DNA from: Pyrinomonadaceae bacterium
GTDB taxonomy: Bacteria; Acidobacteriota; Blastocatellia; Pyrinomonadales; Pyrinomonadaceae
Reading direction: 5' to 3'
Length of the DNA: 33,722 bases
NCBI GenBank assembly: GCA_025922875.1
Contig: JAICGZ010000025.1
Coordinates: 1 to 33,722 of the forward strand
Under the pieces are notes generated by a model that ran no database searches, was not told where the DNA came from, and worked only from the letters and a program-made list of their open reading frames with translations. The position numbers and the translations under genes are program-made. Shown here piece by piece: positions 16,151-33,504 of the stretch; the stretch's first letter is position 1, and each line of letters starts with the position of its first letter.

Positions 16151-17080
16151 TTAGTCGCTGGTAGGAAGGAGATTGGACTGTTCGTCTCGAGTGTCAACGT
16201 TTTTCATCAGAAACTCCTGCGTCGGATACGGAATGGTAATGGACCGCTCGCGGAACAATTGCGTGATCCGGTAGTTAATATCACTGCGGATCTGTACGTG
16301 GCGCCTTGGCAGGTTAGACCAAACAAGCAAACGAAAATCAAGCGAGTAATCGCCGAACTTAAGAAACTGCACCCGGGGTTGAGGATCTACTAACACGTTG
16401 GCGACATTCTTCGCTGCGTCGATCAGCGTGGTCGTCACCAGGTCGACATCGGAGTCGTACGCTACGCCAATCTCGATCGCGATTCGCGCTCGCGGATCTC
16501 CGTAGGACCAGTTCACCACACGTTGACTTATCAGCTTCGAATTCGGAACGATGATCGCAATCCGATCGTTTGTCGTGACGATGGTGGTGCGCAGGTTGAT
16601 ACTCTGCACGTCCCCTTCATCTTCGCCGATCGTGATCCGATCCCCGACTCTGATTGGTCTTTCGAAGAGCAGGATAAAGCCCGACGCGATGTCCGCCGCG
16701 ATGTACTGTAGACCAAAGCCGATGCCGACGGACAAAGCTGTAAAGATCACGGCAATTGAAGTGAGGTCCAGCGCAAATGCCTGCTTGAGCGCCACCAGCG
16801 TTCCGATCATGATGACGAGATACTTGGCCAACCGGCAGATCGTGTAACGCAAACCGGGATCGATGTGATGCCGGCTCTCGATGCGTCGCTCGATCAGCGT
16901 GGACACTGCACGCGCCACCAATAGCGCCACAATAAAAACGGCTACGCCGACGATGACGCTCGAAACCGAAACTGTGATTCGTCCGAAGGTAAACTGTTGC
17001 GTGAGGTAAGCCCAGACGCGCGCAAGTACGTCGGTGAAATCCTGCCAGAATAATAAGAAGTTCGCGAACTCTGCCATCAT
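16151..17080 (-). CDS. MscS-family mechanosensitive ion channel
   Basis: This 309-residue protein opens under membrane tension and releases solutes during osmotic downshock. Three transmembrane segments are seen: about 38-59, 84-104 and the pore helix 107-140 with the MscS signature GIGFGLQYIAADIASGFIL followed by RPIRVGDRI at 141-149. The soluble vestibule follows, with VVTTNDRIAIIVPNSKLIS. The length is that of the basic small channel rather than the large YbdG-type. A two-codon ATG-ATG start has only a weak Shine-Dalgarno sequence. It sits upstream of the TetR gene on the same strand but is separated from it by the inverted repeat. Confidence 0.9.
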   Translation of the reverse strand: MMAEFANFLLFWQDFTDVLARVWAYLTQQFTFGRITVSVSSVIVGVAVFIVALLVARAVSTLIERRIESRHHIDPGLRYTICRLAKYLVIMIGTLVALKQAFALDLTSIAVIFTALSVGIGFGLQYIAADIASGFILLFERPIRVGDRITIGEDEGDVQSINLRTTIVTTNDRIAIIVPNSKLISQRVVNWSYGDPRARIAIEIGVAYDSDVDLVTTTLIDAAKNVANVLVDPQPRVQFLKFGDYSLDFRLLVWSNLPRRHVQIRSDINYRITQLFRERSITIPYPTQEFLMKNVDTRDEQSNLLPTSD

Positions 17081-22861: not shown

Positions 22862-22942
22862 GCGTGTTCTTCTGGGCAAAGCGTCCGTGAGTTTACTACG
22901 ACGCTCAATGGTTCGTTAAGTCGTTTTACTCCCTCGTTCAGA

Positions 22943-22991
22943 GTTCAGCCTTTAGGCTGCTGTTTTCGGAACCGCAAGCTAAAGCTTGAAC
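22943..22991. repeat. Imperfect inverted repeat of GTTCA-type
   Basis: GTTCAGCCTTTAGGCTG faces CAAGCTAAAGCTTGAAC across a short loop, about 12 of 17 positions pairing. It lies between two co-oriented minus-strand genes and is immediately followed by a second inverted repeat. It is likely a dispersed intergenic element. Confidence 0.6.
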
Positions 22992-23014
22992 TGGCTTTGC
23001 ACGAAAAGTCTGAT

Positions 23015-23121
23015 TCTCTGTGCAACCTCTGTGTCCTCTGTGCCTCTGTGGTTGTTTTTCCTAAGCAATAATTGACCACAGAGACACAGAGGGTTCACAG
23101 AGGACGGAGGTTGCACCGAGA
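23015..23121. repeat. Long inverted repeat of ACAGAGG-rich sequence
   Basis: The left arm (23015-23052) and right arm (23075-23121) are largely complementary, built from CTCTGTG/CACAGAG words, with gaps in the right arm. The motif resembles a dispersed repeat seen in many environmental bacterial genomes. It ends about 27 bp before the stop codon of the giant secreted protein gene. Confidence 0.7.
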
Positions 23122-23147
23122 AGAAGCCCGGCGCAAATGAGCAAATT

Positions 23148-26100
23148 TTACGGACTCGTTACCCTCACATCCATGGCTCCCTTGCGATTGCTGCTCGGAT
23201 CAATGCTGATCGTGAACGTACCCGTCGCATTCAACGTCTGTGTGGGCATATTGAAGTTGAGACTGCTCGAAGTGAATGAAGCTTGTTGTGTGCCATCCGG
23301 CTTGAGCAGTCTAACCGTCATCAGACCAATCGCGTTGTTCGTCATTCGAACTGTGACCTGTTGTCCGGAACTAGCCGTGAAAGTCACCTTCGCATTCTGG
23401 CCTGGAACGGTAGTAGCAACGTTTATCGCAGAAGCGTTGATTGTCGTGGATGTCTCAACATCCGGCGGCACATCGTATAGTCTCAGATTTACGGTAGCGG
23501 TGTTGAAGCTGTTCGGGTCTACAAATATCGAGTAGGTACCTGTTACAGGTAATACCCTCACATCGATGAACCCGTTGCTGCCATTACCCACGACATTCGA
23601 AGCCAGGCTCGCTCCATCGGGTTTCCTGATTGTTGTTGACAGAATCCCACTATTCGTCACTGAGACGCCCGTGATATCCAGGCTGATTCGCTGGTTGATA
23701 ACACCATCGAAGGTTAGCTGTCCGTTTTGTCCGGCCGTAGTAGTCGTAACCGTTACGGCTGAACCGCCGGGTATGATCGTGCCGCTAACATCAGGCGGCA
23801 CATCGAAGAGCGTCAGCGTCACCGTGCCGGTAGCTGTGTCGTTTGGATCGACCAGCAAAGTGTAAGTGCCGTTTACTGGCAACGTCCTTGTATCGATAAA
23901 CCCGCCGCCGGAGTCGACGGTGGTGGAGCCCAAAGTCGTGCCGTCAGGTTTCCTGATAGCTATGGTAGCGCGATTACTGGTCCCACCGGTCAACACCACG
24001 TTGGTAATTCTTAGCGATACTCTCTGGTTCGCCGTGCCCTCGAACATCAACTTTACACTCTGTCCCGCCGAAGTCGTCGAAACCGTAACGGGCGGATCCC
24101 CTGGTGTGATACTGCCAACGACATCGTCAGGCACGGCGTAAAGTGTCAGTGTGGCGGTGCCGGTAGACGTGTTCGACGGATCAACCACAATCGTGTAGGC
24201 ACCGTCGGCCGGCAGAGTTTGCGTATCAATGAACCCGCCACTTGCGCCCACAGTATTGGACGCGAGGGAGGTACCGTTGGGATTTTTGATCGCAACACTC
24301 AGCAAGTTGCTGCCACCGGTCAAAGCCACACCACTAATCTTTAACAACACGCGTTGGTTAGTCAGACCGATAAACGACAGCTGTCCGTTTTGTCCGGGTG
24401 TAGTCGTCGTCACTGTCACCGACGATCCACCGGGCACAATCGGCCCGGTAATGTCGGGCGGCACGTCATAGAGCGTCAAGGTAACGCTTCCCACGTTCGT
24501 GCCCTGCGGATCTACGAGGATCGTGTAAGTGCCGGTTACCGGCAGGATTCGGGTATCGATGTATCCGCCACCCGAGCCAATGAAACCGTTCGAAACCAGA
24601 GTCGTTCCGTCGGGGTTCTTGATCGAAACGTCTACGTTACCATTGCCTCCGGTCATTGCTACGCCAGTGATCCTCAGGCTTATTCGTTGGGCGGCGGTAC
24701 CATCGAAGGTCACTTGAACATTTTGACCGATATCATTTGTGGTTACGGTTACCGGAGGCCCACCGGGAACAATAGTGGCGGTGACATCGGCTGAGACGTC
24801 ATTAAGCGTCAAGGTGAGACTGCCGGTGGTAAATGATCTATGGTTAACGAGAATCGTGTAAGTGCCGGTCGCGGGAAGCGTTTGCGTATTGATAAATGCC
24901 CCGCCCGAACCGACAAAATTTGCGGTTGCCAGATTAGTTCCATCCGGCTTCTTGATAGCCACATCGGCTTGGCCGTTATTAGCCAGCAAGACCTCACCAA
25001 TGTTCAGGGTTATGCGTTGACCGGCCACACCGTTGAACGATAATAGACCGTTCTGCCCGGGCACTGTTGTCGTAAGTGTTACCGGAGCTCCACCGGGTGT
25101 GATCGTGCCGGTGACATCCGCAGGCACGTCGTAGAGAGTCAGCGTCGTACTGCCGTAACTTGTGTCGCGCGGATCGACGAGCACGGTATAGTTACCCGTG
25201 ACAGGTAATGTCTGAACGTCAAAGAAACTTCCGCTGGAAGAAATCGAACTGATGGAAGCCAGCGTGACGTCGTCCGGCTTCTTAATGGAAACGTCAACGC
25301 TATTACTGCCTCCGGTCAGCGCAACTCCACTCACCTTCAGACTTATGCGCTGGCCCGTCGTCCCGGCAAATGTTAAGAAGCCTCTTTGACCGGCGCCGAT
25401 CGTGGTAACGGTGACTGGCGGTCCTCCGGGAGTAATCGTGCCGGTCACATCGGGCGGCACACTTACCAGCCTCAATGTCATACTCCCAACGTTAGTACCG
25501 GAAGGATCGATGAGGATGGTGTATGTACCCGACGCCGGCAATGCCGAAGACGCAATGAACCCACCGCTGGTGGTCACTGAAGTTGGAGCAACGAGGTTGC
25601 TTCCGTCAGGATTAAGAATGGACACAGCAGAAAAACTAATGGTGACGGCACTCATGGCTAGACCGACTCTCTGTCCTGCCGTTCCCTCAAAAACAACACG
25701 CGCATTCTGTCCTGAGGTTGTTGTTGTTACGGTCACTGTTGGACCATCGGTCGTGATCGTCGCGAACACATCATTGGCGCCAAAAAGTCTGAGGGTTGCT
25801 GATTTTGTTGTCTCTTCGTAGGTCGCGCTGATAGTGACCCCTGACGTGAATTCGATCGGTAACGTCGTGATGGGGAACGTTGCAGAAGTAGCCCCGCCGG
25901 GGACCGTGACGGTAGCAGGTACCGTGGCCATGTTCGTATTGAGGGAGCGTAATGAAACGAATATGCCGCCAGCCGGAGCGGGGTTGGACAATGTGACTTG
26001 ACCCGTTGCAGTGTTACCCGCGCCGATGCTGCTCGGCAAAAGTGTCAGGGCCTGGAGAGAAGTGGGAACCACCGTGAGCAACTTAGTTTGGCCCACGCCA

Positions 26101-29100
26101 CTCGCTGAAGCCGATATAGTCACAGCCGCAGGCATTGAAACTGCGGTAGTCACGATGCTGAACGTGCCCAAAGTTTGTCCGGCCGGCACTGTTACGTCCG
26201 GCGGTACTGCGGCCACAGCCGGGTCGCTACTTCCAAGAGTAACGACGGCGCCGCCAACCGGTGCTGGTCCATTTAACTCGACTGTTCCGGTTGAAGTTTG
26301 ACCTCCGGTGAGACTGCTTGGATTGAGAAATAAATTACTGGGCACAACTCCCGGCGTAACACGCAAGTAGGTCGTCGAAGTAACGCCTTCATACGTGGCC
26401 CTGATGGCAACGGAGGTGGGCACGGTTACAGCGAGAGTGGAGACAGGAAAGGTTGCCCACGTAAATCCTTCCGGAATCGTGAATTGTGCCGGCACAGTGA
26501 CGATTGAGGTGTCGCCGCTATCGAGAGTTACAGTCGCTCCGCCATCCGGTGAGGAATCTCTTAAAGTGATTGTTGCTGTAGTAGAACCACCGCCTACCAC
26601 GTTGTCAGGCGACACACCTACGCCCTCGAGAGCAATCGGATAAATTCTTAGCGACGCGGATTGACTGACTCCGCTATGTGTTGCCGTTATCTGAGCAGTT
26701 GCCGGCGTTGACACTGAGGTAGTGGTGACGGTGAAAGCGCCGTCAGTGGCTCCTTCAGGAATGGTGACTGAGGATGGCACACTCGCGACTGATGAATCAC
26801 TGTTAAGCGCAACAGTTGCGCCACCGGCCGGTGCTGGACCATTCAAGATCACTCTCGCCTTTACAGGATTTCCGCCCAGCACTTTACCTTCGCTCAAGCT
26901 CATCGACACTAAGGAATGTTCAGCCGGTGCTACTTTTAAGACCGCGGTTTTGCTGACCGTTCCGTACGACGCCGTGATGGTCACCTGAGTAACAGCGGTG
27001 ACGGGTAAAGTCGAGATAACAAACGACTCCTGGCGATAGTCAGGCTGCACTGTGACGGTCGCCGGTACAGTCGCAACGCCAGTATCGCTGCTGGACAGAG
27101 AGACGACTGTGCCTGGTTCCGGAGCAACGCCATTAAATAGTCTGATTGTGCCCACGGAAGGATTGCCGCCCAGAACACTGTCGGGTCCGATCTCCAACTC
27201 TGGCACTATCATTAACTCCGTCAATGCGAAGTTCTTTGTTTCGGAGGCGCCAGTGCTCGCGACGCTGAGAGTAATTACATCCATGCTGCCGGGCGGGATG
27301 TCGGCGGGAGTCTTCAAATTTACGGTAACTTCGATCGTCTGACCGGTGTTGAGAGTGAAGGCTGAGGGACTGATTTTGCGTATCAGACTCTCGTCATCAG
27401 AAGCGTCTATCTTGAACGTGTCAGACACTCCGTGGTTTGTAACCTGAGCTGTGTATGAGAATTCCCGGTCCGGATAAATTTCGTTGGCTCGCGGCGCTGT
27501 TATCTGGACCGTCTGCGGCTTAATGGTTTTAAGCACAACGCGCTGAAACGCTTGACCATTTAGATCAGTTCCGGTTACGTGAGCAAGGACAGGTACAGCC
27601 GGAAAGGTGACGTCGCCGATGTATTGTCTGGCAGTGCCAGTTTCGACAACCGGTATCTCACTCAAGGCGAGAGTTTGAAGAAGATCGCCATTAACATTTC
27701 GCAGTTCGAATTGTGCAGTGTTGAAGTTGCCGGCTGATAAATCTGCGATGACTTTATTCACTGGCCCAGCCAGCGGCAGCCCCTCCACGGGGAAGTAACC
27801 CTCGTGTCCTTCAAGTCCTCCCAACTGGACGATGTCGAACGAAGAGAAGCTCAAAGGGCTTTCGCCCGTCACCCTGATCGTAAACTCTCCACCACCACTC
27901 ACAGTCACGCTCCACACGCCGTCGGCCGGATCGGTGATCGAAAGAACAGTACCGCCGCTGATATCCGCGCTGCTAACGTTCGTGTCTGTCAACTGGACCG
28001 TGCTGCCGTCAGGCCGCTTCACAACGGCGCCTTCTGGACCACTTACTGAAAAAGTGACGCTGGTCAGCGTTGAGTCGACCGGGACCGTGTAAGTCGCCGG
28101 AGTTGCCGACAGTGTTCCATTGATATGTGCAATGTCGACCGAATCGGGACGCACGGTGAAGTCGGCAAGCTTTGTCGCTTCGAAGGTTTCGCTTTCGGCA
28201 ATGACGAAGGTTTGTCCGCCCGTCTCACGAGCAACACGGAAATACTCCGGATCGATGGGAGAGCAGCTTCCGCTCACGAACAGAGTTAAATTCACCTCGT
28301 TCTTTTCCGCGAGACCGATGACAGTTCCAGCGAGCCCACTGTCTTTCGCTGAGGCGTCGGTGAAAACGAGAAGTTCGCCGCCACTTTCGTCAAACTTCTC
28401 GAGGGCTTTAGTCATAGCAGTGAAGGCCAGCTCAGGGCAGTCGCCCCCATCGTCAGCCGCGAGGGCGTTAATAGACTGCTGAAAAACATTAGGGTCATCA
28501 GTCTCAATGAGATTGGTTGTCGGGTCGTCAATTTCCACCAGCACGTATTTCGCTGGTTCGAGATCAGTGTTGAGACGTGAATTAACGATTAAGCTTGCGC
28601 CTTGCCTCACACCCGCGATTTCCGCGGACATGCTCCCGGTAGTATCGATAGCGAATGCGAGTGTGTCGCCGACTCCGAGCAGCGCCCGGAATTGTTTGGC
28701 GGTGACGTTTTTCTTAATGAACTTCAGAAATTCTTTCGTGTGCTGTTTGGCGATTCCTGTCGCCAGGAAGTGAAGGTGACCGTGAGGGGTGTCGCACGAT
28801 CCAGTGTCCTTGTTGATGCCGCCTACGGCTGGGTTATCTGAAGAAAAGTCAAACCAGCCGCCATGACTGCACCTGCCAAAAGGCTTTATGTTCCTGCCTG
28901 GCTTGGCCTGAAACCAGGCGGTCGTGAGTCGAGGGGTGATGACGTTGTTGGCGCATTCTACACATGAGAATGGTGAGGCACAGTCGGCGCAAGTGACTTC
29001 ATTAGAGTGCGCGGCACTTGCGATGAGAGCTCCGGTGTTAGAAAAGTTCGCAACGTTTGGGTTGATGGAAAAATGGTTGGTTTCGAGCCAATTGCTGTGC

Positions 29101-29570
29101 GAGTAGAAATCCTGAATGGCATGGAATGCCGAGCCAAGGGCCAACCGGGCTTTAGCAAGTTCGTTGGCCTCGAGTGCGGCTTTCATGTTTTTATACAGAC
29201 CGTATATTCTCGCTTGACCACCTTCAAGCTCGTCTCCAGTGAAATGGGCCGCATCCATTAAGTAAAGATCAGGTATAAAGTCAGTGTATTTATTACCGTC
29301 TTTGATGTGCTCTATCGCCTTCTCCATACGTTTGCTTACTTTGTTGACACCGGGAATTATTCCCTCGCCCTCGATCAGTTCTTTTATCGCTTCTTCCGTA
29401 ATTTGCACGTGAGTTTTATCACTGGCGCTCGCTCCGGCGGCGTGAGTTGGCTTGAATGCACGAGCGGTGTTTAAGGGCCACCATAGCAGTAGTCCGGATG
29501 CTAATGCTGACGCAGCGACTAAGAGTACAAGCATCCGCTTATAGGCGCGGCGAACGAGCGGGGATTCCAT
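23148..29570 (-). CDS. Giant secreted Het-C/VWA7-like protein with beta-sandwich repeat stalk
   Basis: A 2140-residue protein. A hydrophobic N-terminus (about 13-31) serves as signal peptide or anchor. Residues about 50-290 resemble the Het-C / VWA7-like head, with the signature AFHAIQDFYSHSNW at 148-161 and a cysteine cluster (C194, C197, C203, C206, C234, C259). A von Willebrand A domain follows at about 303-470 with a MIDAS motif, D309-T-T-G-S313-M-S315. Residues about 475-785 hold beta-sandwich modules, the last resembling a NEW3-type domain. Then come five ~96-residue repeats (786-1264) and eight ~110-residue repeats (1265-2140), the latter like bacterial pre-peptidase C-terminal domains. 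There is no LPXTG, T9SS sorting domain or barrel at the end. AAGGAG precedes the ATG. A role in surface adhesion or cell-cell interaction is inferred. Confidence 0.85.
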   Translation of the reverse strand: MESPLVRRAYKRMLVLLVAASALASGLLLWWPLNTARAFKPTHAAGASASDKTHVQITEEAIKELIEGEGIIPGVNKVSKRMEKAIEHIKDGNKYTDFIPDLYLMDAAHFTGDELEGGQARIYGLYKNMKAALEANELAKARLALGSAFHAIQDFYSHSNWLETNHFSINPNVANFSNTGALIASAAHSNEVTCADCASPFSCVECANNVITPRLTTAWFQAKPGRNIKPFGRCSHGGWFDFSSDNPAVGGINKDTGSCDTPHGHLHFLATGIAKQHTKEFLKFIKKNVTAKQFRALLGVGDTLAFAIDTTGSMSAEIAGVRQGASLIVNSRLNTDLEPAKYVLVEIDDPTTNLIETDDPNVFQQSINALAADDGGDCPELAFTAMTKALEKFDESGGELLVFTDASAKDSGLAGTVIGLAEKNEVNLTLFVSGSCSPIDPEYFRVARETGGQTFVIAESETFEATKLADFTVRPDSVDIAHINGTLSATPATYTVPVDSTLTSVTFSVSGPEGAVVKRPDGSTVQLTDTNVSSADISGGTVLSITDPADGVWSVTVSGGGEFTIRVTGESPLSFSSFDIVQLGGLEGHEGYFPVEGLPLAGPVNKVIADLSAGNFNTAQFELRNVNGDLLQTLALSEIPVVETGTARQYIGDVTFPAVPVLAHVTGTDLNGQAFQRVVLKTIKPQTVQITAPRANEIYPDREFSYTAQVTNHGVSDTFKIDASDDESLIRKISPSAFTLNTGQTIEVTVNLKTPADIPPGSMDVITLSVASTGASETKNFALTELMIVPELEIGPDSVLGGNPSVGTIRLFNGVAPEPGTVVSLSSSDTGVATVPATVTVQPDYRQESFVISTLPVTAVTQVTITASYGTVSKTAVLKVAPAEHSLVSMSLSEGKVLGGNPVKARVILNGPAPAGGATVALNSDSSVASVPSSVTIPEGATDGAFTVTTTSVSTPATAQITATHSGVSQSASLRIYPIALEGVGVSPDNVVGGGSTTATITLRDSSPDGGATVTLDSGDTSIVTVPAQFTIPEGFTWATFPVSTLAVTVPTSVAIRATYEGVTSTTYLRVTPGVVPSNLFLNPSSLTGGQTSTGTVELNGPAPVGGAVVTLGSSDPAVAAVPPDVTVPAGQTLGTFSIVTTAVSMPAAVTISASASGVGQTKLLTVVPTSLQALTLLPSSIGAGNTATGQVTLSNPAPAGGIFVSLRSLNTNMATVPATVTVPGGATSATFPITTLPIEFTSGVTISATYEETTKSATLRLFGANDVFATITTDGPTVTVTTTTSGQNARVVFEGTAGQRVGLAMSAVTISFSAVSILNPDGSNLVAPTSVTTSGGFIASSALPASGTYTILIDPSGTNVGSMTLRLVSVPPDVTGTITPGGPPVTVTTIGAGQRGFLTFAGTTGQRISLKVSGVALTGGSNSVDVSIKKPDDVTLASISSISSSGSFFDVQTLPVTGNYTVLVDPRDTSYGSTTLTLYDVPADVTGTITPGGAPVTLTTTVPGQNGLLSFNGVAGQRITLNIGEVLLANNGQADVAIKKPDGTNLATANFVGSGGAFINTQTLPATGTYTILVNHRSFTTGSLTLTLNDVSADVTATIVPGGPPVTVTTNDIGQNVQVTFDGTAAQRISLRITGVAMTGGNGNVDVSIKNPDGTTLVSNGFIGSGGGYIDTRILPVTGTYTILVDPQGTNVGSVTLTLYDVPPDITGPIVPGGSSVTVTTTTPGQNGQLSFIGLTNQRVLLKISGVALTGGSNLLSVAIKNPNGTSLASNTVGASGGFIDTQTLPADGAYTIVVDPSNTSTGTATLTLYAVPDDVVGSITPGDPPVTVSTTSAGQSVKLMFEGTANQRVSLRITNVVLTGGTSNRATIAIRKPDGTTLGSTTVDSGGGFIDTRTLPVNGTYTLLVDPNDTATGTVTLTLFDVPPDVSGTIIPGGSAVTVTTTTAGQNGQLTFDGVINQRISLDITGVSVTNSGILSTTIRKPDGASLASNVVGNGSNGFIDVRVLPVTGTYSIFVDPNSFNTATVNLRLYDVPPDVETSTTINASAINVATTVPGQNAKVTFTASSGQQVTVRMTNNAIGLMTVRLLKPDGTQQASFTSSSLNFNMPTQTLNATGTFTISIDPSSNRKGAMDVRVTSP
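23151..25778 (-). repeat. Eight tandem ~330-bp coding repeats (PPC-like modules)
   Basis: Each module begins DVTGTI/PGGxPVTVTT, then GQNGxLxFxGxxxQRISLxI, a KPDGT turn and PxTGTYTILVDP. Module boundaries recur near 23459, 23787, 24118, 24448, 24780, 25108 and 25440. The middle modules are closest to each other; the first and last are the most diverged. Confidence 0.85.
25779..27215 (-). repeat. Five tandem ~285-bp coding repeats (second beta-sandwich type)
   Basis: Each module follows the pattern VxGGNxxxGxVxLNGPAPxGGxxVxLxSSDxxVAxVPxxVTV, PEGAT...FxVxTxxVxxPxxVTIxAxYxG. This differs from the PPC-like modules further along. Confidence 0.8.
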
Positions 29571-30036
29571 GGGGGTTCTCCTTTTTTTACTGGTACGAGT
29601 TTGAGTGATCTAACCAGCGCTACAACCCTGCAATATGCGAAGAGAATTCTGCGGGGGATGAATCTCTTGACGCGTGCGGTTGCAGCGGATTCAGAAACGG
29701 TTCTTCAACACATGCCTTCCGAACGAGAAGTTCGAAAGCATGTCAGTAACGAAGCGAATAGAAATCCCCGGTTCGAGATGGAGCGGAGCTTTAGTTTGTT
29801 TGTGTTCTTGATCTCAGTCGGGTTGAGACAAGGGGAGGGCCGCTAACTGGGCAACTGTGTGTGAAGCGTGCTCAGACTAGGCCAACGTTTAGATACCTGT
29901 CAAGGTTTTTTATCAACAGGTGAGGTCCGGCGCGTGAGCATATCTAACCACGATGAAGATATGCCGTACTGACGGAGCCAAACTCCTCAAGCCATAGAAG
30001 TGAGGCGGCTTCACGACAGATTCCGTGAAGATGACA
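29571..30036. other. 466-bp gap between dprA and the giant gene
   Basis: Both flanking genes run on the minus strand, so this should hold the promoter of the giant gene, though no clear pair was identified. A short plus-strand frame (29601-29846, TTG start) has no support. Small hairpins are present: GCATATCT/AGATATGC (29938-29945 and 29957-29964) and CTTCACG/CGTGAAG (30009-30015 and 30024-30030), the latter just after the dprA stop; neither has a T-tract. Confidence 0.55.
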
Positions 30037-31320
30037 TTAAGAGTCTTTAAAGAGTTTGGAGCTCCTCCTGGAACGATATCGGATGGGTTTTGATAGCTTC
30101 TCTAAAGTGCCCTCCTTGACGAGTCGCTTTAACCATTTCTTAGCCTGCCCTAATGTTACGTCTAACTCGTTCGCGATCTCTCTATCAGTCTTAGGTTCGT
30201 CCAGTCGTTCGAGCATCGTTCTCACCCTGTCAAAGAGTTGCTCAGCCAGAGGAATGCTTGAACTGTCTGCTTCGCTCGAGGTGTCAAGTAATTTCTGTTT
30301 GTCAGACTGATTTCCATTGTCGGGTGAAAAGGAGAGCTGTTCGGTATCTGTCGACCGTATTCGAGCAGCTAACGCTTCCCTGAAATCGTCGGGAGTGGTG
30401 GGATTCGGCCATGTCAATGCGCCCTTTTTATTAAGAGATTCAAATGCTGCATCCTGCTGAGAGTGAGGGAGAGTGTAAACCGGTACTAGACGCAATTTGT
30501 CTAGCTGCTCAATTGCCCCCGCCCAGGTACCTCCTTTTCCGTAATCGGACTGAACCACCAGAGCCGCATCTGCCAGCGCGTAAATGAGCTTATTTCGCTG
30601 CATCGCGTTCCCAATATTGAATCCAGCCTGTGGATCGTACGGAGAAAGTAGCACTAGTCGCCCATCTCTCAAATAGTTTCGGTGATCTCGGTTGAGAGCT
30701 GAACGCTCCAGGCTGTCCGCGAGAACTCCCGCCGCATTACCTCCTGCTTCCAATACACCAGACATGGCTGCCTGATCGACTCCCCTGGCCCCTCCGGAAA
30801 TAATAGTTCGCTGAGCACGCGCGGCGAGTTCACCGATTGCAGTCGCGGACTCGAGAACTGTGGCATCAGCGTGTCGGGATCCGACTACCGCAAGTCCTCC
30901 GTTATTAAGAATCGTTGGATCGCCACAGCCATAAAGAACGGGTGGAGCCATGTCCTTAAGCCGGTCTTTCAGACGCGCCGGATAACCTTCATCAGCTCTG
31001 CTTACTACCCAGATTGCGCGAGCCCGCCACCGCTCAATCGCCTGGCTCAAAAGGAATCCTCGTGCGACGAGACGTTTAAGACGATCACTATTGACAACCT
31101 GGCCTAAGTCAAGAACCAACTCATTCCCGCCAACAGCGACGAGGTCCGCCGGCTGACAATCTTTGCTATAAAGAAACCGCGCGAGCCTCCCATACTCACT
31201 CAGGGTTAATAACTCTCTCGAATTTTCCCCGCGTCCCACAATCAAGGGGGCAGTGAGTAACAAGATTGCCTGCGTATTCGCTGAGACTGGGGCGCTGATT
31301 TCTAATTGAGAAGTACTCAT
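30037..31320 (-). CDS. dprA: DNA-processing protein DprA/Smf
   Basis: DprA binds incoming single-stranded DNA and loads RecA, and is required for natural transformation; some relatives act in phage defence. The 427-residue protein has the Rossmann-like core: AVVGSR at 144-149, [12 protein letters not shown] at 175-186 (the usual form is SGGARGID), then [23 protein letters not shown] and a KGGTWAGA loop in place of the common SGT. A C-terminal winged helix is seen as [31 protein letters not shown]. The gene's ATG overlaps the TAA of the preceding RecQ-PRTase gene by one base (TAATG), so the two are translated together. A longer frame exists upstream but runs into that gene. The N-terminal ~130 residues do not clearly match the SAM domain of classical DprA. 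Confidence 0.9.
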
Positions 31321-32366
31321 TAGACGTTTCCTGTTATTGCGAGCGCTAGAGGCCAAACCTCACCGGCGCCGTTGGTGCGCAGCAGCCAGGCCGCAACCGT
31401 CATTGTCCAACGCGAATCCACCATATCATCAACCAACAATACCGGGCCAGCAAGCAATGGTTGAGCAATAAGAGCGAGAGAACCGTCGATGTTTCGCGCT
31501 TGCTGTGTGCTGTTCGCCATTGTTTTCTGCTCGGGACGAGGTTGGGTTTTTACAATTGCGTTTTGGAATGGTAGCCCCAACTCTGACGATAACCTTCGAG
31601 CAAAATCCGGTACCAGGTGTGAATGCCTCAGTGATGGAATACACGTGACCCAGGCAGGCGCTGGTTGAGGACTCCACGCTCTCACAAGTGCCGCACACGC
31701 TTTAACGAGTTCGTCGCTAAAGCGTCTGTCAACATACTTTCCCTCTCTCACTAGTCTTCCCCAGCCAGCGTCACCCCACATACATAATGCCTTGCCTGGC
31801 TCGGCCAAATGCTCTGGACGGATTTTCCCTTTGAGCCCATAGGTTGGCATTCCTCCTGCCGGCCATTGTTTGCGTGGTTCAATGGGCAAGCTAGTGCCGC
31901 GCAGAAATTCAATCGCTTTATGAACAAGCTGTGGGTCTACTGTCGTTGGTAACAAAGGCAGCGCTGCGGTACTCGCTTCGTTAGTCTCGCCATCGAGCGC
32001 CCGGGTTAGAAATTCCATGTGCCCACTCGAAAGACTAACGTATTCCTGCATCTGATCTCGCTCACTTCGTCGCAGCTCGGTGAGTCGTTGAGCGCGTTGC
32101 CAAAATTCTTCACTTAGATTTGTATTAGTCAAGAGCCACTTCGTGCCTTGCTTCACGACCGGAGCAGGCGATTCGAGGGAGAGCAGGTTGATGACGTTTT
32201 GAATTCGTCCCGTACTAATATTCAAGCGCTCCATCAGCTCGGGAACAGAGAGCCCGCTTACTACTTCCTCGAGCACATTAAGTACCTGCTCAGCTTCGTC
32301 TCGGGTAGGAAATGCTGTTTCGATAAAGTAATCGATGACATCGGTATCTTCCTGACCGCTGAGCAA
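31320..32366 (-). CDS. C-terminal part of frameshifted RecQ-like helicase: winged helix and phosphoribosyltransferase domain
   Basis: This 348-codon frame continues the RecQ protein encoded just upstream. Residues about 30-80 resemble a winged helix ([24 protein letters not shown]). The next region has the helical pattern of the RecQ zinc-binding subdomain ([12 protein letters not shown]...GHMEFL), but the zinc cysteines are absent. Residues about 200-348 are a phosphoribosyltransferase-like domain, with [22 protein letters not shown] and the PRPP-loop equivalent [13 protein letters not shown] (TG replaced by SR). The apparent TTG start lies inside the RecQ frame and is not a natural start; in-frame residues before it read LESAYGVLL, the normal continuation after the helicase GRAGRA motif. 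The frame ends with TAA overlapping the dprA ATG. Confidence 0.8.
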
Positions 32367-33394
32367 AACACCATAGGCCGACTCAAGGGCGCGCGTCCTG
32401 CTCGGCCAACCTGCTGATAGTAGGCCACCACGGATCCCGGAGTTTGATAGTGAATCACGAAAGCTAAATCCGGCTTGTCGAAACCCATTCCCAGAGCAGT
32501 TGTCGCCACTAAAGCTTTGACCTTGTTATCGAGCAAATGCTGTTCAAGCTCGTCACGGCCCTCGCCAGTTCGTCCGGTATACGACTCAACATTAATGTCG
32601 CGCGACTTAAGCCAATCAGATAGTCGATTGGCGTCGCGAACGGTCAGCGTGTAAATGATCCCGGCTCCGGGCAGATTGAGAAGCTGTTCCGCCAACCATG
32701 CCATTCTTTCTTCCTGACTGGAAAGTCGGATGGTTTGGAGCCGCAACGAGGGGCGGTTTAGATCACCGCGCAAGACACCGAGTTGTGGTCCAAGCACGAC
32801 CCGCAGATCGTCCATTACTCGATCGTTCGCTGTAGCGGTAGTGGCCAGTAAGCGCAGGTTAGGGGGTAGCCCGTGTAAGATTCTTTCTATCATTCGATAG
32901 TGTGGTCGAAAATCGTGCCCCCAGTCGGAAATACAGTGAGCTTCGTCTATTACTAACAAGCTAATACGCGCGGCAATCTGAGAGAGAACTTGTGTTCGAA
33001 AGTGTTCGTTCGCCAGACGTTCCGGTGAGATCAAGAGGATGTCAAGCTCGTCGCTTCTGATCTCGCGCTCAACGGTTTCCCACTCATTGAGATTGTCAGA
33101 GTTAATGGTGGCGGCCCTAGCGCCCATGCGCTGAGCCGCGCGGATCTGATTGCGCATTAACGACAGCAACGGTGAGATAAGCAGGGCCGGTCCGTGCCCT
33201 TGTTCTCGGAGCAACTTCGTGGCGATGAAGTAAACGAAGCTTTTGCCCCAACCGGTCCGTTGCACGACCAAAAGACGACCGCGTCCCTCTACGATGTGCC
33301 GGATAGCCTCTTCCTGTCCGTCGTGAAATGTGGCATTTCCCAGACCAGTGCCAAGGTGAAGGAGTTGAAGTGCACGGGCGGAGTCGTAAGGCAT
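32261..33394 (-). CDS. RecQ-family DNA helicase, N-terminal part (frameshifted)
   Basis: The helicase core of a RecQ-type 3'-5' helicase. With the start at MPYDSARAL, motif I TGWGKS is at 47-52, motif II DEAHCIS starts at 150, motif III ATTATAN follows, and motif VI QQVGRAGRA is at 327-335. Right after this motif the frame is lost: residues after about 335 (PLSRPMVF...) are not RecQ-like, and the true continuation is in the other frame. No stop codon separates this ATG from the tRNA fragment upstream, so a longer frame exists but translates tRNA and was rejected. The intact ancestor would be about 690 residues: helicase, winged helix, phosphoribosyltransferase. Confidence 0.82.
   Translation of the reverse strand: MPYDSARALQLLHLGTGLGNATFHDGQEEAIRHIVEGRGRLLVVQRTGWGKSFVYFIATKLLREQGHGPALLISPLLSLMRNQIRAAQRMGARAATINSDNLNEWETVEREIRSDELDILLISPERLANEHFRTQVLSQIAARISLLVIDEAHCISDWGHDFRPHYRMIERILHGLPPNLRLLATTATANDRVMDDLRVVLGPQLGVLRGDLNRPSLRLQTIRLSSQEERMAWLAEQLLNLPGAGIIYTLTVRDANRLSDWLKSRDINVESYTGRTGEGRDELEQHLLDNKVKALVATTALGMGFDKPDLAFVIHYQTPGSVVAYYQQVGRAGRAPLSRPMVFCSAVRKIPMSSITLSKQHFLPETKLSRYLMCSRK
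32387..32395 (-). other. Frameshift site in the RecQ gene
   Basis: The plus-strand GC-dinucleotide run GGGCGCGCG lies at the point where the RecQ homology changes frame. Removing one GC restores [12 protein letters not shown], the expected helicase sequence. Equivalent to a 2-nt insertion (or -1 slip) relative to the ancestral gene. Could be a real mutation or a sequencing or assembly error. Confidence 0.75.
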
Positions 33395-33444
33395 GAGGAT
33401 CGCCGATAAAAGAAGAAGAACCAAGCTAAGTTGTTGACCATGAA

Positions 33445-33504
33445 TGGCGGAGGGGACAGGACTCGAACCTGCATAGCCTTTCGGCCGGCGGTTTTCAAGA
33501 CCGC
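33445..33504 (-). tRNA. tRNA-Ser(UGA), 3' half only (partial)
   Basis: On the minus strand a perfect anticodon arm GCGGT-CTTGAAA-ACCGC gives anticodon UGA (33495-33497). It is followed by a long variable arm typical of serine tRNA, a T arm (GCAGG-TTCGAGT-CCTGT) and a 3' end CCCCTCC-G-CCA. The 5' half is missing: upstream sequence has neither the expected GGAGGGG acceptor strand nor a D arm with GG. A pseudo-tRNA of about 89 nt beginning GGAAGTC can be drawn, but its acceptor stem has three mismatches. It is not expected to be functional. Confidence 0.8.

Follow-up and report, generated by a model that had tools for sequence, protein, structure and literature searches.

A PsyrTA (RqlHI)-type toxin-antitoxin gene pair with an interrupted toxin frame beside a tRNA-Ser copy in a Pyrinomonadaceae bacterium

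The DNA considered here is contig JAICGZ010000025.1 of a Pyrinomonadaceae bacterium (33,722 nucleotides, hereafter the window), one contig of a 542-contig assembly. Towards one end it carries a gene for a RecQ-type helicase that ends in a phosphoribosyltransferase (PRTase) domain with a phosphoribosyl pyrophosphate (PRPP) loop, and directly downstream a dprA-like gene (Table 1). A sequence-only reading of the window had described this gene order, the RecQ-type helicase and the dprA-like gene. The order, on the minus strand, is confirmed, and the helicase and the dprA-like gene were borne out by the profile searches (DEAD, Helicase_C, TIGR00614, DNA_processg_A). The single-base stop/start overlap that it described is likewise there, in the form of TAATG, and the two genes are likely to be translationally coupled through it. 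The limits given for the locus, 31318 to 33394, had to be widened, as the dprA-like gene extends to 30037. A scan for promoters and terminators was unremarkable, with two promoters and five terminators found against 3.1 and 4.2 in shuffled sequences.

Table 1. Features of the psyrTA locus and its surroundings, in positions of the window unless residues are given
Feature	Position	Strand	Basis or remarks
psyrT (rqlH), 5' part: RecQ-type helicase core	32381..33394	-	ATG at 33394; PsyrT profile, DEAD and Helicase_C, translation
psyrT (rqlH), 3' part (C-part): winged-helix segment and PRTase domain with PRPP loop	31320..32393	-	
Winged-helix segment	residues ~21-84 of the C-part		
PRTase domain	residues ~139-348 of the C-part		
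Frame break in psyrT	32380..32396	-	indel not a multiple of three; three-frame translation
psyrA (rqlI): DprA-like SLOG domain and C-terminal winged helix, 427 amino acids	30037..31320	-	PsyrA profile, DNA_processg_A
TAATG stop/start overlap	31318..31322	-	toxin TAA 31322-31320, psyrA ATG 31320-31318, one base common
Exact 62-bp copy of the tRNA-Ser(UGA) 3' end, attachment-site-like duplicate	33443..33504	-	100% match to C107:18417-18478 of the same genome
Variable interval from the tRNA-Ser copy to conserved chromosomal DNA	22921..33442		2140-amino-acid VWA7-type protein, then psyrTA; DNA match to G015 ends at 22920

Both genes belong to a named family. Among the PADLOC profiles, the dprA-like protein matched PsyrA over its full length (E 9.6e-130, profile positions 3-396 of 398). 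The helicase piece and the C-terminal piece both matched PsyrT, contiguously although in two different frames (E 4.5e-161, positions 4-338 of 689, and E 4.1e-103, positions 343-684), so that a RecQ-type helicase is followed by a C-terminal PRTase, with PsyrA directly downstream on the same strand. Matches to other PADLOC families were weaker (ShosA 5.5e-22, ShosT 0.0005, DpdF 8.4e-85 and 1.1e-18). The helicase also has the Pfam domains DEAD (E 1.5e-26) and Helicase_C (1e-15) and passes TIGR00614 (224.1 bits, cut-off 219.8). The product of psyrA contains DNA_processg_A (E 5.6e-35) and fails the canonical dprA model of NCBIfam (81.2 vs 191.15 bits). Therefore, judging by its sequence, the pair is PsyrTA, called RqlHI in Escherichia coli: a known kind of toxin-antitoxin system and no new DNA-uptake machine. 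The product of psyrA is presumed to be the antitoxin or regulator of the product of psyrT. PsyrTA was reportedly described by Sberro in 2013.

The arrangement is shared by many relatives. A scan of contigs with the C-part gave 145 of them, and the best 80, from many phyla and at 60-69% identity, were analysed, a sample that leans to close relatives. The helicase lies upstream of the C-part in all of these 80, and psyrA comes next on the same strand in 79 of the best 80; the remaining locus (L119) holds fragments only. With starts chosen mechanically, a start codon giving a 4-base overlap is available in 51/80 relatives and one giving a 1-base overlap in 11/80. To counter the lean toward close relatives, we searched a second sample, 297 genomes drawn from the phylum. 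PsyrT was found in ten (E up to 1e-15), and in each of the ten PsyrA was the next match on the same strand, split over two contigs in G126. The sequence-only reading had made its case depend on how often dprA is adjacent, and in both samples it is adjacent nearly always.

PsyrA-type matches were found in 17/297 phylum genomes (E up to 1e-45), seven of which have no PsyrT; apart from G188 and G329, these seven were inspected. In G312 (L214:5758-6992) psyrA is kept while psyrT is reduced to its first 35 codons, leaving an orphan antitoxin, and in G253 psyrA stands without PsyrT beside it. In G090 and G136, a helicase-free PRTase gene lies directly before a DprA-like gene (the PRTase of G136 recognized by a 29.5% match); L215:1459-3188 and L216:6139-7142 are pairs of this kind. 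The L215 PRTase matches the PsyrT profile (8.6e-15), and the DprA-like protein next to it matches that of PsyrA (2.8e-50) better than that of ShosA (3.2e-36), which makes this pair a possible link between PsyrTA and ShosTA. The match in G037 (E 2.6e-62), a genome with no PsyrT match, begins 132 bases from a contig end and may belong to another DprA-like family.

The window C-part is closer to some distant copies than to those of its own genus. Identity is 69% to a copy labelled Fraserbacteria, 68% to Syntrophaceae and 67% to Acidovorax, above 62% and 44% to the same-genus copies in G007 and G006. In the tree, the window row has no firm place (end branch 0.5, bootstrap not settled), and therefore we argue for transfer from the identities and the patchy distribution, and not from a supported clade. 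In G007 (L043:3910-4808) the psyrA match ends at residue 251 and gives way to another C-terminal fragment of PsyrT, a structure that suggests recombination between two copies.

The PRTase-like domain proposed by the sequence-only reading is recovered by profile-profile comparison and by fold search, as a domain of the ComFC/ShosT kind, but it stays below the Pfam cut-off (16.5 vs 26.3 bits) and likewise below those of NCBIfam. The hhalign comparison with ComFC was made without a control family. In the Foldseek fold search, APRT ranked first (E 1.9e-4) and ComF second (3.5e-4), with ComF first only in the VIA-align second look, and the best match of the C-part profile to sequences of solved structures was to PRPP synthetases (E 0.014). 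The gene pair as a whole is more than a chance likeness, in view of the full-length matches to two family profiles and of the same arrangement in 79 of the best 80 of 145 relatives. The PRPP loop of the window reads DDMVDSRWT, while ComFC-like loops read DDVFTTGAT and kin; 22 ComFC-like open reading frames (ORFs) from relatives, picked by pattern for such loops and equal in length to those of the comF model search in 22/22 cases, have DDV[FYM]T[TS][GS][AS]T, and the window loop departs from the DDxxTTGxT type. The S, W and T of DSRWT are invariant in 81/81 alignment rows. So is the first D of DMVD (the second D of DD). DMVD supplies the acidic PRTase residues that RqlH, in its DIVD motif, requires for toxicity (PMC4670107), its equivalence to D663 resting on the motif and not on an alignment with the F11 protein.

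The proposed RecQ-PRTase fusion stands only in part: both halves are present, and their fusion is the rule in relatives, but in this assembly helicase and PRTase do not share one uninterrupted frame. The break sits in a short alternating G/C tract directly after helicase motif VI (QVGRAGRA). By three-frame translation, the frame that starts at 33394 runs past motif VI without family homology to a stop at 32261, while the C-part is open in a second frame from ~32393 to 31320 and resumes the family sequence. A single frame is kept across this point in 80/80 relatives, in 79 by the best match and in L126 by the second match; L126 has a psyrT break of its own at another point. A programmed frameshift was rejected because of this single frame in 80/80. 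The break lowers the chance that PsyrTA works here and leaves its descent from PsyrTA untouched.

Whether the break is real or an error of assembly or sequencing is a near even matter, and we put an error, with the toxin intact in the living organism, slightly below an even chance; this would concern the present copy alone and is compatible with a PsyrTA origin. The break lies ~1.3 kb from the contig end in an assembly of 542 contigs, and the frame past it remains open with identity to relatives of up to 69%. On the other hand, all nine of the other window genes that were compared with G015, a sister genome, align to it in a single frame (p11 over 154/211 residues), which argues that this stretch of the assembly is not generally frame-shifted. 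Moreover, a broken toxin with an open psyrA recurs in 3/80 relatives (L087, L106, L126), and in G312 most of the toxin gene is gone. L100, in which homology to psyrT starts only at residue 259, at 132 bases from the end of a contig, and L123, whose psyrA match starts at residue 76, were left out of the counts of broken and intact genes, and L120 was rejected as a broken psyrA, its stop being merely a shorter C-terminus. A real break would leave the PRTase out of the helicase frame, and the toxin would then most likely be dead; psyrA keeps an open frame.

The copy of the tRNA-Ser 3' end lies 48 bases upstream of the psyrT ATG. The intact tRNA-Ser(tga) gene is elsewhere in the same genome (C107:18392-18476, ARAGORN), and 21 bases after it begins a tyrosine integrase that runs off the end of that contig (PF00589, E 6.3e-34; L045, C107:18392-19114). 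The tRNA end is present in 12/16 genomes of the genus, this one included. In the window, a second exact attachment copy was sought, with no match of 11 bases or more. In G011 and G014, with nadE on the far side of the tRNA, only ~250-350 bases separate tRNA-Ser from the MscS gene (16154-17080 in the window); the distance is ~1 kb in G003 and 16.4 kb in the window. The chromosome of G015 matches the window up to 22920, and from there to the tRNA it holds 15.6 kb of other genes. From these distances and the contents of G015, the interval that holds psyrTA is variable and lies at a tRNA-Ser integration site.

By eye, the G015 interval between tRNA-Ser and p18 (L162-L163, G015:C12:1092500-1130000) resembles a lanthipeptide-type cluster with a radical SAM protein, an ABC transporter and a LanM-like protein. 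In G010 (L157), a similar integrase lies beside the tRNA (87% over 118 amino acids). Beside psyrTA, the 2140-amino-acid protein (23148-29570, minus strand) has VWA7_N (Pfam E 6.3e-48), VWA and PPC domains, and its N-terminus looks Het-C-like by eye. At the other end of the window, the minus-strand frames for a Rieske/pyridine-nucleotide oxidoreductase (242-1978, listed with a TTG start) and GTP cyclohydrolase II (1905-2549) overlap by more than 70 bases; the true start of the oxidoreductase probably lies later.

The locus is best explained, with good confidence, as a toxin-antitoxin operon of the PsyrTA (RqlHI) family that lies in variable DNA at a tRNA-Ser site. This analysis shows the family identity, the operon order, the stop/start overlap, the wide but patchy spread, the tRNA-Ser duplicate and the broken toxin frame. 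As for function, Russell & Mulvey (2015, PMC4670107) report for E. coli that RqlH and RqlI bind each other and that RqlH without RqlI causes SOS induction, filamentation and growth loss. The substitutions D663A and DIVD663EVME abolish nearly all of these toxic effects, and thus the PRTase active site is needed. In the same account, the PRTase domain alone is not toxic, while with helicase-dead mutants viable counts still fall and SOS still rises; therefore, the helicase seems to restrain the PRTase. By extension from this work, the helicase part would put PsyrT on DNA, probably on intermediates of replication or repair that phages or other mobile DNA produce, and the helicase part and PsyrA together would keep the PRTase quiet. 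On single-stranded DNA, replication intermediates or a trigger like single-stranded DNA-binding protein, the complex might change and free the PRTase, which could then spend PRPP or modify a nucleotide or DNA substrate, so that the cell would be damaged or arrested.

A defensive role for such pairs has precedents. A DprA-PRTase pair defends against T7 and lambda, with shosTA, syrTA and rqlHI cited as toxin-antitoxin systems (PMC9122126). A survey of Pseudomonas aeruginosa calls PsyrTA an abortive-infection system and places 81.8% of the PsyrTA strains of its panel in the resistant group (PMC10855318). PsyrTA is listed as a defence system by DefenseFinder (PMC12278908) and by PADLOC.

The sequence-only reading had seen in these genes a possible DNA-uptake complex that would replace ComFA, ComFC and DprA on incoming single-stranded DNA. 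The same three activities are indeed present, the PRTase is related to ComFC and a DprA domain is there; the parallel itself is already in print, as Russell & Mulvey discuss ComF and DprA (PMC4670107) and Iyer et al. (2017, PMC5512222) place helicase-PRTase plus DprA next to ComFA/ComFC. But the uptake role finds no support, as the genome also carries, apart from psyrTA, a ComFC-like gene (C9:25913-26494, scoring under the comF model cut-off like those of all 24 genomes searched) and a usual-type DprA (C1:29674-30426); the psyrTA genes were accordingly rejected as the genome's own DprA or ComFC-like gene. Moreover, PsyrT occurs in only 10/297 phylum genomes, while the usual-type DprA (E 1e-20 to 1e-38) is found in 55/59 relatives; psyrA-type matches (E up to 1e-60) are found in 7/59, this genome and the doubtful G037 counted. 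The setting of psyrTA in variable DNA next to the copied tRNA 3' end, and the report of undetectable transformation in the extraintestinal pathogenic E. coli isolates of Russell & Mulvey (PMC4670107), speak against uptake as well, and we regard this role as very improbable. Rather less improbable, though still unlikely, is a DNA-maintenance machine, in which PsyrT would be a repair or replication helicase, PsyrA its regulator and the toxicity a mere sign of imbalance. Russell & Mulvey themselves favour a function on DNA in which the two proteins cooperate and which is yet to be defined, and also mention that RqlH of Mycobacterium smegmatis was described as a helicase and that many Gram-positives carry RqlH without RqlI (PMC4670107). 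A maintenance role fits poorly with the patchy spread, the integration-site setting and the loss in relatives, and with the listing of PsyrTA as defence by PADLOC and by DefenseFinder (PMC12278908).

Several observations weigh against reading the locus as a toxin-antitoxin operon at a tRNA-Ser site. By its geometry the pair stands between the tRNA fragment and the chromosome and outside the element to which the detected integrase belongs; hence that element probably lies beyond the contig end, and we infer that psyrTA arrived earlier or in another event. A tRNA was found near psyrTA in only three of the 80 relatives' loci (ARAGORN, flanks up to 6 kb, whole tRNAs and not fragments), one of these calls being inside psyrT, and a tRNA nearby may thus be untypical of psyrTA loci. 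Among 50,697 phage records, none had a relative at E 1e-5; among 72,556 plasmid records, ten matched at E 1e-20. In a Chlorobiaceae metagenome-assembled genome (L119:7041-7288), psyrT is open and psyrA broken, which is unexpected for a toxin-antitoxin pair. In the set of Russell & Mulvey (PMC4670107), RqlH occurs without RqlI in 55.3% of strains and in 99.6% of Gram-positives, and thus in some hosts the toxin gets by without this antitoxin. Finally, one E. coli PsyrTA in K-12 is reported to cause a growth defect with undetectable phage protection (PMC12409345).

With PsyrTA as the preferred identification, this work is mainly a correction: a striking fusion is an already described toxin-antitoxin and defence pair. 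The new local detail is the variable interval beside the tRNA-Ser copy and a PRPP loop unlike that of ComFC. Useful additions are the figures on psyrA-psyrT adjacency for this group; an invariant variant loop, to be accounted for by any proposed mechanism; PRTase-DprA pairs that lack a helicase and could bridge PsyrTA and ShosTA; and one copy in which the toxin frame is broken and the antitoxin open. Tentatively, though this is less likely than not, the PsyrT PRTase could form a distinct enzyme class: its PRPP loop is rewritten, with DSRWT in the place of TTGxT, and its substrate may thus be DNA or a nucleotide bound to DNA and not free bases. PsyrTA, ShosTA and helicase-free pairs such as those of G090 and G136 would then have a DprA-PRTase core in common, and the helicase would be an addition to it that both targets DNA and restrains.

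Among known systems, DpdF of the 7-deazaguanine Dpd system resembles PsyrT as a helicase with a similar C-terminal part, but the window protein misses the NCBIfam cut-off for it (164.8 vs 550 bits, helicase piece only), and no other dpd genes were found among the nine window proteins scanned with PADLOC. ShosTA and the DprA-PRTase system of PMC9122126 differ in having a ShosT-type PRTase without a helicase, while the window PRTase is joined to a helicase domain and the psyrA product fits the PsyrA profile far better than ShosA (9.6e-130). In comparison with ComFA-ComFC-DprA, the window helicase is of another family and fused, the PRPP loop is divergent, and the genes are separate from the genome's own ComFC-like and DprA genes. 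PsyrTA/RqlHI shares with the window a RecQ-type helicase-PRTase fusion upstream of an overlapping or adjacent DprA-like gene on the same strand; the window pair is distinguished from it by the broken toxin frame, the tRNA-Ser 3'-end duplicate alongside and another host.

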